From Desulfocapsaceae bacterium (lineage in GTDB: Bacteria; Desulfobacterota; Desulfobulbia; Desulfobulbales; Desulfocapsaceae), in contig JAUSAB010000044.1 in NCBI GenBank assembly GCA_030653035.1, positions 1 through 55,781 on the forward strand: a DNA stretch of 55,781 nt. Direction: 5' to 3'. The notes below the pieces were generated by a model. It did no database searches. It was not told where the DNA came from and saw nothing but the letters and a program-made list of their open reading frames with translations. Each line of letters opens with the position of its first letter. The stretch's first letter is position 1. Shown in pieces: positions 51,223-55,781 of this stretch. The position numbers and the translations under genes were made by a program.

Positions 51223-51296
51223 TGGGGGATGGTCTAATGGTAAGACAGCGGACTCTGACTCCGCTTATCGAGGTTCGAGCCCTCGTCCCCCAGCCA
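51223..51296 (+). tRNA. tRNA-Gln(CTG)
   Basis: The acceptor stem TGGGGGA/TCCCCCA, D-arm GTC...GAC, anticodon stem GCGGA/TCCGC and T-arm CGAGG/CCTCG all pair. The seven-base anticodon loop CTCTGAC gives anticodon CTG, reading CAG (glutamine). The CCA end is encoded. Everything downstream to the window end looks foreign, so the 3' end of this tRNA is a plausible integration site, although I found no second copy of its 3' sequence inside the window. Confidence 0.95.
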
Positions 51297-51617: not shown

Positions 51618-52115
51618 AAGAATTGCGCGGAGAAAGATGAACGATTCTAATATCGCACAAATATCGCCATCCTCGTTCCAACCTTTCTGAAATCTTGCCA
51701 TTCACGCCTTTATCAGACATGAAGGATCTCCGAATTCTCTGACAGTTCCTTCAGTTTTCGGTCATTAATAAAGATCGGTCATAGCTGGCAATCCTTGCGC
51801 ATTCTTTTTTCTGCGTCAGAAAGGCCACATGTGAAAATTCCCCTATTTATTTTCTTGATTATGAGTTGTTGGAACTGGTAGCATGACAATAAGATAAAAT
51901 TTGATTTCCTTTCATAAGGGCGTATGATAATCATCTTGAATATGAATACCCTTGATCAGGGTACTTCGCCAAAAGAAGTAAAGTTGGGTTACATTCCAAC
52001 AACTTGTCACCATGAAATAGCGCATACCCGGTGATCCTGTACCGCCAGTAAAATTATTTCGAATTGTTGGCAGAGTAGCTGAGAAGGTTAAGAGACATTG
52101 AAAGGATGGGTGGGT

Positions 52116-52836: not shown

Positions 52837-53337
52837 TCACTTATAATTCGGGTTTATCATTTCCATTATTCCGCTATCAACCAACCGATTTTGTTGCCTC
52901 AAAACATCAACCACACTCCCGCCGCCCACATTAACCTGCACGGCCGTATCAATTACTCTTCCCAGCACTGTTTCCCGGCCCTTACTGATCGTCTCAGCCC
53001 TTGCCCGGTAATCACTCTGGTTCTCGCACTTGGCCGCCATCGCCTCAGAGACATTCTTAATGGCCGCATTGTTAAAGAACACAATGTGCTCCGTTCTCTT
53101 GTTAACTACATCGTTAACTGCGCCCACAAAGTGTTCATCGTTCTCCGCTAACCCTTGCTTGTATTGCACGCCAGCGTTCACGACTGCAAGACCGTCTTTC
53201 TCAACTTTAGCGGTATGCTTGGCGATAAATCCGACACTCACCTCGTGTTTCTTCGCAAGGTCACGAATGGAATATGCGCCGGTTCGCCATTCACCAACAA
53301 TCACCGGGATAAGTTTTTCATAACTCTTTTGATTCAC
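52837..53337 (-). CDS. Helix-turn-helix DNA-binding protein, phage/terminase-small-subunit-like
   Basis: A 166-residue protein starting at GTG 53337 with GAGGT upstream. The N-terminal helix-turn-helix is visible as SIRDLAKKHEVSVGFIAKH. The rest is helical (EDHFVGAVNDVV-like region, then AAIKNVSEAMAAKCENQSDY and RARAETISKGRETVLG). The style resembles phage terminase small subunits or phage regulators, but I cannot confirm it. After the TGA stop the same frame stays open for 42 more coding-like codons (to 52708), so the gene may be truncated by a nonsense mutation. Confidence 0.55.
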   Translation of the reverse strand: MNQKSYEKLIPVIVGEWRTGAYSIRDLAKKHEVSVGFIAKHTAKVEKDGLAVVNAGVQYKQGLAENDEHFVGAVNDVVNKRTEHIVFFNNAAIKNVSEAMAAKCENQSDYRARAETISKGRETVLGRVIDTAVQVNVGGGSVVDVLRQQNRLVDSGIMEMINPNYK

Positions 53338-53485
53338 TTTTTTACCTCTATCGTGAATTTGCAGGACGAAGATTTTGATTCGTTCCGAATTTCGTAATGC
53401 GCCATTGGGGCTGAACATAACTGTTGAAACTATCGTTTAAGTGTACAGGTTGGTGTCCAGTATGCCTTTTTCCGATTCTGTATTT

Positions 53486-53902
53486 TTAGACACAATCTAC
53501 CCCCAGCAGTTTAACCGAATTAATATCTTCAGCAGAATATAATGGATCTCCAAGAGCATCATAGCCCTTTGGCTCCAGTCCCAACATTTCAAATATTGTT
53601 ACCCGTGCAGATGCTGTCAGCAGAGAAGGAACTTCTGAGACAATGGGCCGATAGTAAATTTCAAGCACCTCTTCAGGCGAACTGAAAGACTCAGAGATAG
53701 CTTTTATATGAAGCTGGCCTTCATCTTGGTCAATGCTCCTACAGTGGCAATTTAGAAGAATACCGTGACAAACAGGGCACTCTTCGGCGAAACAACCATA
53801 TTCATGATGCTGGCCTGGTTGAACACCGCAAAGAAGACATGAGCTGAAGTCCATATTTAATCGTTTCTCGCTACCATATTTTACCCGTTCACATTTCGTC
53901 AT
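53486..53902 (-). CDS. Hypothetical cysteine-rich zinc-binding protein
   Basis: The 138-residue protein has an N-terminal metal cluster with CLLCGVQPGQHHEYGC, then CPVCHGILLNCHC. Together they form the C-x2-C...H...C...C-x2-C...C-x-C pattern found in small conserved bacterial hypotheticals. The C-terminal part (VLEIYYRPIVSEVPSLLTAS) is mixed alpha/beta. AAGGATATT precedes the ATG. Its function is unknown; the metal site suggests structural zinc or nucleic-acid binding. Confidence 0.65.
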   Translation of the reverse strand: MTKCERVKYGSEKRLNMDFSSCLLCGVQPGQHHEYGCFAEECPVCHGILLNCHCRSIDQDEGQLHIKAISESFSSPEEVLEIYYRPIVSEVPSLLTASARVTIFEMLGLEPKGYDALGDPLYSAEDINSVKLLGVDCV

Positions 53903-54178
53903 AATATCCTTTTCATCTATGGTTTTGTTAGGTTGTCAAAAGTTGACATTGATTGAAAAACAATCATTGTTTATCAATTGGCCTGCATCCGTACCAACCT
54001 CCTCAATATCGTTCAGCCTTGCCGCTTATATCCCCCTAACGACATCCGTGGTTACACCCTTTTTTTTTCGTGTTGCGTTGCGTTTTCGCGGCAATACAAA
54101 AAAAAGGCGGAATGGACAGGGAGACAAGAGACCGAAGTCATCCCCAAGAAGGGCCAGAGAAGAGAGAGGGGAGAGCTT

Positions 54179-54223
54179 CTCACTGTGTACATATATGGGA
54201 CTACTATAATAGTACACAGTGAG
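54179..54223. promoter_or_regulatory. Palindromic operator-like site around a -10 box
   Basis: CTCACTGTGTAC (54179-54190) and GTACACAGTGAG (54212-54223) are a perfect 12-bp inverted repeat with a 21-base spacer that contains TATAAT (54205-54210). This is the layout of a repressor site overlapping a promoter. On the minus strand a TATTAT-type box is also possible. It sits in a 441-base gap (53903-54343) between two minus-strand genes. The rest of the gap has a T8 run near 54060 and no gene that I recognise. Confidence 0.6.
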
Positions 54224-54343
54224 ACTCCTTAATTCCGACTCGACCTTCTTCTATCCCTTCGTTATTTCAGCGATAATTTTACTGTTTTTCATTTTTTAAC
54301 ACTTTTTTAAAAAGCATACACATTGAGAATTGTGACGTTTTTT

Positions 54344-55621
54344 TCATGCTGCTTGCCGCAACCTACGATGTGCCCGAAGAGCATCCTGAATTTCCTCTAA
54401 GGGAAGCGGCTTGCGATGCTTCAGGTTTTCAGCCGCAACAATCCCCTCCAGGTCAAAAAAGCCCATGACAGCATCGCGGTTTTTTCTGGGACAGAGGCAG
54501 CCGTCATGGACTGGCAATATCACGATGTCATCCTCCATCCCACGGGCCATGATTCTTGCCATCAAGGCCGCTTCGGTTTTTTGTAGGTGTCCCCAGTTCG
54601 GTTTGTAAAGATCCTCTAAAATTGCAGAGTGGTGGTTTTCTAAGGCCATGATATAGGTTTCCAGATTTTCCTCTTTGCCATAATGCTTGCGGTAGGTACT
54701 CATAATCTTTTTTCTCCCGGAAACTGGAGATTCCGGATTGCGTGTATTGAGCATTAAAAGCATCAGGTGTTTTGTTATGTCTCGGTGATCATCGGTATAA
54801 AGATATGGGTCTCCCGCTGGTAGAGACAGCCCTCGGCTTTTATACAGGAGCTGGGTGTGCATTGCCCTCCCGTCGAGATCAACAGTTAATTCACCGTCAA
54901 TGGTGATGGAGCGGCGAAAATCTTTTTTACAGCCTATCCAGAATGCCCCGTAGAATCGCCCCCCCTTGGTTAAATCTTGATCGTTAAAGACTACATATGG
55001 GAGACACTTGGTTTCGTCGGGCATTATTATTTTTGCCTTCCCATGTACTTCGGTCTCACATTGATCGTACAAGTCGAACGTTTGACGATCCAGATTCAAG
55101 CGTATGTCATGACGGAGCAAGAATTCCCAATACCGTTTTAGAAAATCATTAAGACTTCGACGTTCGAGTGTATTGATTTTGACCACTTCCGATCTCCCCT
55201 CGTTAATGATGATTGCCCCTCTCGGCTGATAATGGGTCCGAGCTGGTTGGTAAGCTCGAATCCGACTGCTGTAAGTGATAAGCCTCCGGGTGAACTCCTG
55301 ATTTTCGACAAGTTGAGAAATGAGGGCGACCTTTTCGAGGTGCTTTAAAACATTTTCAAAAACCTGCCGGGAGTACCCCCAGCTTTCAGCGATCAACCTG
55401 CTAAAATTACAAATTATTAGTTCTTTCCCCGTGCTGATATTCGCGAGAATCGAACAAAGAGCTGATACTTGTGCCCGTCGGATCTGTTCGTTGCGAAATG
55501 GCATCGGATAAGCTTCAAAGACTGCGATTGCATGATTCACATGGCAACACCGTTCATGCTTGAAATACGGGATTGAACTATCCTGAAGACGATTTATCCG
55601 CCATCTATTGTAGCCCTTCAT
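54344..55621 (-). CDS. Diverged palm-domain (T7 RNA polymerase / DNA polymerase A-like) protein
   Basis: A 425-residue protein starting at ATG 55621 (AAGGGAG upstream; a longer GTG frame reaches 55669). An N-terminal helical part with a winged-helix look (NFSRLIAESWGYSRQVFENV) precedes a C-terminal half with three polymerase motifs in the right order. Motif A is VDLDGRAMHTQLLY with Asp250. Motif B is RDITKHLMLLML (Arg280, Lys284, the R-x3-K of the O-helix). Motif C is LPVHDGCL (His372, Asp373). T7 RNA polymerase has DGS, RSVTK and HDS at these points. It could be a replication or transcription enzyme of a mobile element. The family is unrecognised, and the polymerase assignment is inference from short motifs. 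Confidence 0.6.
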   Translation of the reverse strand: MKGYNRWRINRLQDSSIPYFKHERCCHVNHAIAVFEAYPMPFRNEQIRRAQVSALCSILANISTGKELIICNFSRLIAESWGYSRQVFENVLKHLEKVALISQLVENQEFTRRLITYSSRIRAYQPARTHYQPRGAIIINEGRSEVVKINTLERRSLNDFLKRYWEFLLRHDIRLNLDRQTFDLYDQCETEVHGKAKIIMPDETKCLPYVVFNDQDLTKGGRFYGAFWIGCKKDFRRSITIDGELTVDLDGRAMHTQLLYKSRGLSLPAGDPYLYTDDHRDITKHLMLLMLNTRNPESPVSGRKKIMSTYRKHYGKEENLETYIMALENHHSAILEDLYKPNWGHLQKTEAALMARIMARGMEDDIVILPVHDGCLCPRKNRDAVMGFFDLEGIVAAENLKHRKPLPLEEIQDALRAHRRLRQAA

Positions 55622-55669
55622 CAGCACTGCACTCCCTTGTCGATTAAATCCAACAAGGATAGCTGTCAC

Positions 55670-55781
55670 TCAGCTTTTAAAAATGACCCCCGGTCAGCGT
55701 CCAAAAATGCCCCCCCGAAAGTCAATAAAAGTAGTGCAATTCCGGCTCGAAATTTAAGTTTAGAAACCAAGCGAGCTAGGT
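55670..55781. mobile_element. Possible IS21-family element end (repeat-bearing terminus)
   Basis: AAAAATGACCCCCGGTCAGC and AAAAATGCCCCCCCG occur as near-tandem copies at 55678-55720. Repeated AAAATGACCCCC-type blocks are typical of IS21-family termini. The transposase would lie beyond the window end, so this cannot be confirmed here. Confidence 0.35.

Follow-up and report, generated by a model that had tools for sequence, protein, structure and literature searches.

The closest described systems are small family-A polymerases of phages and mobile elements. One of these, divPolA2, was named in 2024 in a study whose text describes an active-looking palm with no recognizable thumb and suggests repair or RNA synthesis as the role (PMC11348598). 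According to that text, divPolA2 accompanies a regular DNA polymerase in phages. TV-Pols were described in 2008 by a hairpin Arg, two palm Asp residues, an Asp and an RxxxK element in the fingers, and a bihelical thumb (PMC2579912). They are found on mobile elements and in viruses, and priming was predicted for them from gene context, through their linkage to a helicase. Priming by CcPol-MP, a polymerase that its authors class with the TV-Pols, has been demonstrated (PMC7581432, PMC10061031). PMC7581432 names E710 and reports that CcPol keeps the equivalents of E710 and F762. The passages of PMC7824862 that we consulted hold nothing direct for the family studied here.

We analyzed a 55,781-nt stretch of DNA (the window, meaning the whole stretch) from a Desulfocapsaceae genome. 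One gene in it almost certainly encodes a palm polymerase of the PolA/T7 RNA polymerase (RNAP) superfamily. The original prediction, made from the sequence alone, was of an undescribed single-subunit palm polymerase in a tRNA-linked element. The palm, the short length and the tRNA link were borne out. The word "undescribed" has to be withdrawn, because the family is the one named divPolA2 in the text of PMC11348598, and its residues fit the TV-Pol description of PMC2579912. What is new here is the integrative-element setting of the family and the His and Asn residues at the sugar-selecting positions.

The gene and its closest relative

The open reading frame can be read from an upstream GTG as 441 aa or from the ATG at 55621 as 425 aa. 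In the closest relative (L009, contig JAGXHG010000017.1, from a Desulfobulbaceae MAG), the ATG overlaps the stop of the preceding HTH gene by one base. Since the ATG at 55621 aligns with that one, we consider 425 aa to be the better reading. Residue numbers count from this ATG and would be 16 higher in the GTG form. VDLDGRAMH, RDITK and VHDG, which had been likened to motif A, an R-x3-K element and motif C, are all found at the claimed places in the translation of the frame at 54344-55621. No exonuclease domain was detected. The coordinates of all features are collected in Table 1.

Over 425 codons, the window gene and the L009 relative are 93% identical in nucleotides and 91% in protein. dN is 0.048 and dS is 0.178 (ratio of about 0.27), and 49 of the 90 differences fall at third positions. 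The window gene is therefore under purifying selection and is not a chance open reading frame.

Table 1. Features of the polymerase locus (window coordinates).
Feature	Position	Strand	Evidence or remark
tRNA-Gln, probable integration site of the element	51223..51296	+	second partial 3'-end copy beside an integrase gene on contig C37
tRNA-near segment common to the tRNA-proximal end of the relative's element	51734..51935	.	84% over 203 bp with L130 8821-9021
193-aa gene, weakly terminase-small-subunit-like	52837..53418	-	phrog_1206, E 0.0027 over 29 residues; 83% to L009 neighbor
138-aa gene, function unassigned, conserved beside polymerase	53486..53902	-	80% identical to L009 neighbor; no Pfam match
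Polymerase gene, 425 aa, ATG start	54344..55621 (stop codon within)	-	ORF, phrog_4756 match and relative
H372-D373 codons, motif C	54503..54508	-	H 20/22, D 22/22
Asn292 codon, Lys+8, O-helix Tyr position by ungapped count	54746..54748	-	Asn 19/22
R280-x3-K284 codons, fingers (motif B)	54770..54784	-	22/22 each; aligned with PolA RxxxK
His255 codon, motif A Asp+5	54857..54859	-	His 17/22
D250 codon, motif A metal-binding Asp	54872..54874	-	22/22; predicted strand end
R222 codon, hairpin Arg of GGRFYG	54956..54958	-	22/22; aligned with Arg of TGRLS in PolA
118-bp repeat in place of the upstream HTH gene, ends contig	55664..55781	.	93% to G000:C15:23-140

Family membership and spread

The window protein matches the PHROG family phrog_4756, annotated as "unknown function", with E 3.6e-28. 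The divPolA2 reference protein AUR84708 (Vibrio phage record MG592441) and Barba18A gp034 match the same profile (E 1.8e-91 and 3e-64), and so we place the window protein with divPolA2. The window protein and the divPolA2 reference both consist of an N-terminal domain and a palm with no exonuclease. They differ in that the reference comes from a lytic phage while the window gene lies on a bacterial integrative element, and the window match covers only residues 211-401 of the 441-aa form.

Other sequence searches with the window protein gave little. Pfam returned no family at E 5, PF00476 and PF00940 included, and the sole NCBIfam row had E 0.071, far under its cut-off. A single-sequence search of PDB chains found no polymerase. 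Searched against PDB chains, a 33-row family profile gave 13 weak matches (best E 0.22), several of them winged-helix proteins and none a polymerase.

Among genomes of the class, 21 of 257 carry the family, as do 7 of 395 in the phylum sample (the window genome is counted in both); none of 14 control genomes does. The window protein as query matched 15 phage and 3 plasmid records, and a more central relative matched 286 phage records at E up to 0.001 (some phages are deposited twice). All of the phage matches listed, 15 and 60 rows respectively, are annotated as hypothetical. A viral model library gave 13 matches at E 0.001; two of them, one from Barba31A and one from an uncultured marine phage, carry the name DNA polymerase. 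No relative turned up when viral_contigs was scanned with AUR84708, the window protein and its nearest relatives, and the whole Ma-LMM01 genome had no phrog_4756 match at E 10.

Predicted fold

An AlphaFold2 model of the window protein, built on 33 rows, had a mean pLDDT of 66.4 and a pTM of 0.59. Most of the first 150 residues are poorly modeled, and block means of pLDDT are 75-93 over residues 221-400. In this model D250 closes the strand 244-250 and H372-D373 lie between strands 369-371 and 374-378, which is the strand order of a palm. A palm, which the original prediction proposed to look for, is predicted with confidence.

With VIA-align, the top match of the window model was yeast mitochondrial RNAP (Z 12.6, 253 residues aligned, 4.5 A); PolA, apPOL, T7 RNAP and T7 DNA polymerase followed at about Z 10. 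Each of the best 50 rows, from Z 12.6 down to 9.4, is a family-A DNA polymerase or a single-subunit RNAP. Foldseek gave no PDB match at E 0.001 for this model (best 0.011). The model of a relative, L060, is better (pLDDT 86.8, pTM 0.81, with a well modeled N-terminal part), and for it Foldseek found 36 PDB matches at E <=0.001, all of them family-A DNA polymerases. VIA-align placed apPOL at Z 15.1, mitochondrial RNAP at 14.5 and T7 RNAP at 13.4, and again the best 50 rows (Z 15.1 to 13.4) were all members of the superfamily. Since the rows lie within about 2 Z, the fold does not separate a DNA from an RNA polymerase.

In the relative's model, the N-terminus runs helix-helix-strand-helix-strand-strand. 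Matches to winged-helix proteins were sub-threshold only, and from the model a winged helix is plausible. A PF00940 match, weak in both cases (best E 0.011), was obtained for two of 30 members.

Conserved residues

Residues were counted in a 22-row alignment of the window protein and members found by profile or whole-protein search. These are 22 of 39 loci, with duplicates and fragments excluded from the counts (e.g., L053, L057, L078, L080, L082 and L033-L039). R222, D250, Y273, R280, K284 and D373 are present in all 22 rows, R236 in 21, H372 in 20 (the other two have Tyr), Asn292 in 19, D271 in 18 and His255 in 17. The five positions singled out in the original prediction (D250, R280, K284, H372 and D373), and with them its three motifs, are among the conserved ones; R222 was not on its list. 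Neither of the two outcomes that were to refute the prediction, a fold lacking a palm and loss of conservation at the catalytic residues, was observed.

Across the window protein and 32 relatives, 31 of which were fetched by sequence patterns spanning motif A, motif C or the RVFN stretch, the invariant residues are R222, R236, D250, H255, D271, K284, N292, L369, H372 and D373. In a 54-row alignment that includes near-duplicates (the window protein twice among them), R222, D250 and D373 are found in 54/54 rows, K284 and H372 in 53, and R280, His255 and Asn292 in 52. Each scan that fetched IMG/VR rows used two patterns, one of which included that His, and the His count among those rows is therefore biased. 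In the 40 rows at <80% identity, the same three groups are found in 40/40, 39 and 38.

We also looked at 10 rows outside the 54-row alignment, five of them already in the 22, after dropping an eleventh (a short spurious ORF in L046). All 10 have R222, D250, R280, K284 and D373, and 8 have H372. The fifth residue after the motif A Asp (Asp+5) is His in 3, Asn in 2, Ile in 2, and Ala, Leu or Phe in the others; the eighth residue after the Lys (Lys+8) is Asn in 6, Phe in 2, and Gly or Ser in the others. We considered His255 as a family-wide rule and ruled it out from the 17/22 and 3/10 counts.

Profile comparisons

We compared a 54-row family profile with 20 host-family PolA sequences plus T7 DNA polymerase using hhalign. 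The match had P 9.2e-5, a probability of 59% and a score of 45.3, while 60 column-shuffled controls scored at most 24.7 and the reversed control 13.8. The alignment is in register at the hairpin Arg, the motif A Asp, RxxxK, Q347 and HD, so that motifs A, B and C, the hairpin Arg and the conserved Gln of DNA polymerase I (PF00476) all have counterparts. Unlike DNA polymerase I, the window protein has no Pfam match, exonuclease, acidic gate or O-helix Tyr (on the ungapped reading), and its fingers insertion is shorter.

T7 RNAP as a single sequence gave no match to the family profile (P 0.36). The predicted order of the motifs holds, but "roughly canonical" was generous for their spacing: the motif A Asp and the Arg are 30 residues apart in the window protein, about 50 in host PolA and 90 in T7 RNAP.

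The same genome encodes an ordinary PolA and a second short family-A polymerase, a 413-aa protein (L132 5026-6264, G000:C94) with a PF00476 match of 2.4e-35. The gene beside it looks to us like one for a Bro-N protein. The family profile matched the 413-aa protein with P 6.8e-6 and a probability of 85%. It has Glu at the gate and Tyr at the O-helix position, and it forms a bridge between the window family and PolA.

TV-Pol candidates were chosen by gene position and motifs: MAP_030 of Ma-LMM01, two from Polaromonas and one from Calothrix. Its motifs and the transposase genes next to it make MAP_030 the probable TV-Pol of Ma-LMM01. A larger family alignment against MAP_030 and relatives gave P 5.7e-4, a probability of 29% and a score of 38.4, with 60 shuffles at most 18.8. 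The 33-row profile against MAP_030 alone was not significant (hhalign probability 0.3%), and the candidates against PolA were not above noise (P 0.041). Asp+5 is His in three candidates and Gln in Calothrix; Lys+8 is Asn in MAP_030, Tyr in the two from Polaromonas and Met in Calothrix. A phylum-wide search with a Polaromonas candidate, run without a positive control and so uninformative, found 0 of 395.

The window protein has the residues listed for TV-Pols, with R222, D250, D373, R280 and K284 conserved throughout the 22 rows and D271 in most of them. The absence of a nuclease and the mobile setting are also shared. TV-Pols have a bihelical thumb; none was identified in the window protein, whose model has helices at 152-169 and 179-188 ahead of the palm. 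By its residues divPolA2 may lie within TV-Pol, but the profile link to the candidates is moderate. TV-Pols are linked to a D5-like helicase or a recombinase; for the window family we found an integrase, but no helicase among the ORFs scanned.

Sugar-selecting positions

Two positions, the gate and one in the O helix, set the choice of sugar in PolA and T7 RNAP. The gate is Glu in E. coli PolI (E710), and from this we take Asp+5, His255 in the window protein, to be the position of the PolA ribonucleotide gate. Host PolA carries Asp at this position and T7 RNAP carries Gly; members of the family often have His. Lys+8 by ungapped count is Tyr in both host PolA and T7 RNAP and mostly Asn in the family, in line with the original remark that the fingers Tyr was not evident. 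The PolA profile alignment opens a one-residue gap in the O helix, which moves Asn292 to the Gly that follows the Tyr. No gap occurs there in the alignments with the C94 protein and with the TV-Pol candidates, in which Asn292 falls on Tyr and on Asn, respectively. Lys+4 is F762 in PolI; the window protein has Leu288 there, and 50 of 54 rows carry Leu or Asn.

We infer that the gate and O-helix residues face the sugar in the window family as well. His255, Leu288 and Asn292 would then replace the residues that decide between NTPs and dNTPs in known relatives. AUR84708 has Glu, Thr and Tyr at these three positions, and FDE at motif C. In Barba18A gp034 the gate residue is Trp and the O-helix residue Asn. 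The family thus holds more than one gate/O-helix state. In the main texts that we searched, a part of the open-access literature, we found no description of the His/Asn state.

The integrative element and its neighbors

The window and the relative's locus are homologous over 52974-53428 and 53425-55665, and over the 203-bp piece near the tRNA gene. From these homologous segments we conclude that the two elements are related, although they sit in different tRNA genes. The relative's element spans about 10.7 kb and is flanked by a 60-nt direct repeat (93%) of the tRNA-Thr 3' end. It encodes a tyrosine integrase and has an HTH_3 gene next to one of 92 aa (presumably a toxin-antitoxin-like pair). 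An HTH_39 winged-helix gene overlaps the start of the polymerase gene, and the element also carries a 159-aa gene of unknown function and one that weakly resembles a terminase small subunit (E 0.0034). There was no helicase in the 7 that we scanned of the element's 13 ORFs of at least 80 aa between the repeats, polymerase aside.

Homology to the relative's locus ends at 55665, where the upstream HTH gene is cut by the 118-bp repeat, and the window element may therefore be damaged. This repeat, which also sits at the end of contig C15 of the same genome, is probably the end of an insertion sequence. The integrase half of the element lies outside the window. On contig C37 (L147 1888-3395), an integrase-like gene sits beside the partial copy of the tRNA-Gln 3' end. 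C37 has only a 52-bp stretch in common with the relative's locus. The integrase-like gene may mark the far end of the window's element, or it may belong to a second element that uses this site.

An integrase gene is present in five of the six family loci with wide flanks (L130, L131, L133, L135 and L136). In the sixth, L134, none was found among the ORFs scanned, which were only some of those present. A DUF3102 gene precedes the family member in L134 (8457-9377), and on a Polaromonas plasmid (L149 4140-4799) an annotated DUF3102 gene lies two genes before the TV-Pol candidate, near a recombinase.

Directly upstream of the family member in L136 is a clear terminase small subunit (357-1091; phrog_606 1.9e-38, PF16677 9.7e-21), which hints at satellite-like elements. 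Phage satellites of the PICI kind have an integrase, a replication gene and a terminase small subunit, and a helper phage packages them. Of these features the relative has the integrase; the terminase-like match is strong in L136, from another genome, but weak in the window and the relative.

Proposed function and alternatives

We hold, at about even confidence, that the window protein is a predicted-active minimal family-A polymerase that primes the replication of its integrative element. Once the element had been excised by its own integrase, its DNA would be held by the N-terminal domain, which is probably a winged helix; the palm would start or extend a short strand, and host replication would then take over. 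We favor priming because it has been demonstrated for CcPol-MP (PMC7581432, PMC10061031) and proposed for TV-Pols (PMC2579912). CcPol-MP and the related PolA-SSB primases share with the window protein a family-A palm on a mobile element and a proposed priming role. However, CcPol keeps the E710/F762 equivalents (PMC7581432) and needs an OB-fold partner, whereas the gate residues of the window protein differ and we identified no partner for it. Further points weigh against the overall reading: we saw no helicase among the scanned ORFs, while TV-Pol priming was inferred from helicase linkage; family members in phages occur beside a regular DNA polymerase, according to the text of PMC11348598; the hhalign probabilities are moderate (59% for PolA, 29% for the TV-Pol candidates); the element in this genome may be damaged; and the structural matches fit DNA and RNA polymerases alike. 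A narrower form, in which the protein would be the priming polymerase of satellite-like integrative elements with its own sugar choice (His gate, Asn for the O-helix Tyr), distinct from that of DNA and of RNA polymerases, and AUR84708 would represent a DNA-polymerase-like state, we regard as doubtful.

The original prediction offered a combined initiator and polymerase or a minimal transcriptase, and both roles are plausible. A minimal single-subunit RNAP that transcribes genes of the element or of phages seems unlikely to us. Such a role was considered for divPolA2 in the text of PMC11348598, Glu is rare at the gate, and the few weak PF00940 matches point the same way. Mitochondrial RNAPs take rows 1-11 of the window-model list (Z 12.6 to 10.2), but they are tied with DNA polymerases, which lead for the better L060 model. 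The fold shared with T7-like and mitochondrial RNAPs is not matched in sequence by single-sequence T7 RNAP, we detected no promoter-binding N-terminal domain like that of RNAPs, and the His and Asn of the window protein stand where T7 RNAP carries Gly and Tyr.

We find it rather less likely still that the protein serves mobile elements and phages as a DNA polymerase for repair or for filling gaps. The homology to PolA and the Glu and Tyr kept by AUR84708 would agree with this, as would a PolB of the phage carriers' own, reported in the text of PMC11348598. However, most members lack the DNA-polymerase residues at the gate and in the O helix, and the host has a normal PolA. Mobile elements often carry polymerases for defense or untemplated synthesis, and the odd gate residues might suggest a non-replicative role of this kind, which is nevertheless improbable: PADLOC gave no match for the window protein or two relatives, and the template-contacting Arg is conserved. 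That the motifs are a coincidence or the palm is dead is very improbable. The empty Pfam and NCBIfam results, the lack of polymerases among PDB chains by sequence and the Foldseek result for the window model could be read this way, but the fold, the register of the motifs, the conservation and the purifying selection argue against it.

The analysis ties phrog_4756 to the family-A polymerase fold and shows that the family is also present on tRNA-integrated elements. Because Glu/Tyr and His/Asn states occur in one family, shifts between DNA and RNA synthesis could be tested within it.

Two other genes near family members were noted. Klebsiella phage FBKp34 (L045 2407-3756) encodes, two genes away from its family member, a protein that weakly matches a nucleotidyltransferase family (phrog_1614, 5.2e-6). 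In the G020 locus (L131 17089-18003), a gene near the window-gene relative matches a DNA topoisomerase PHROG at 1.6e-61; the match to the window gene itself contains an internal stop there.
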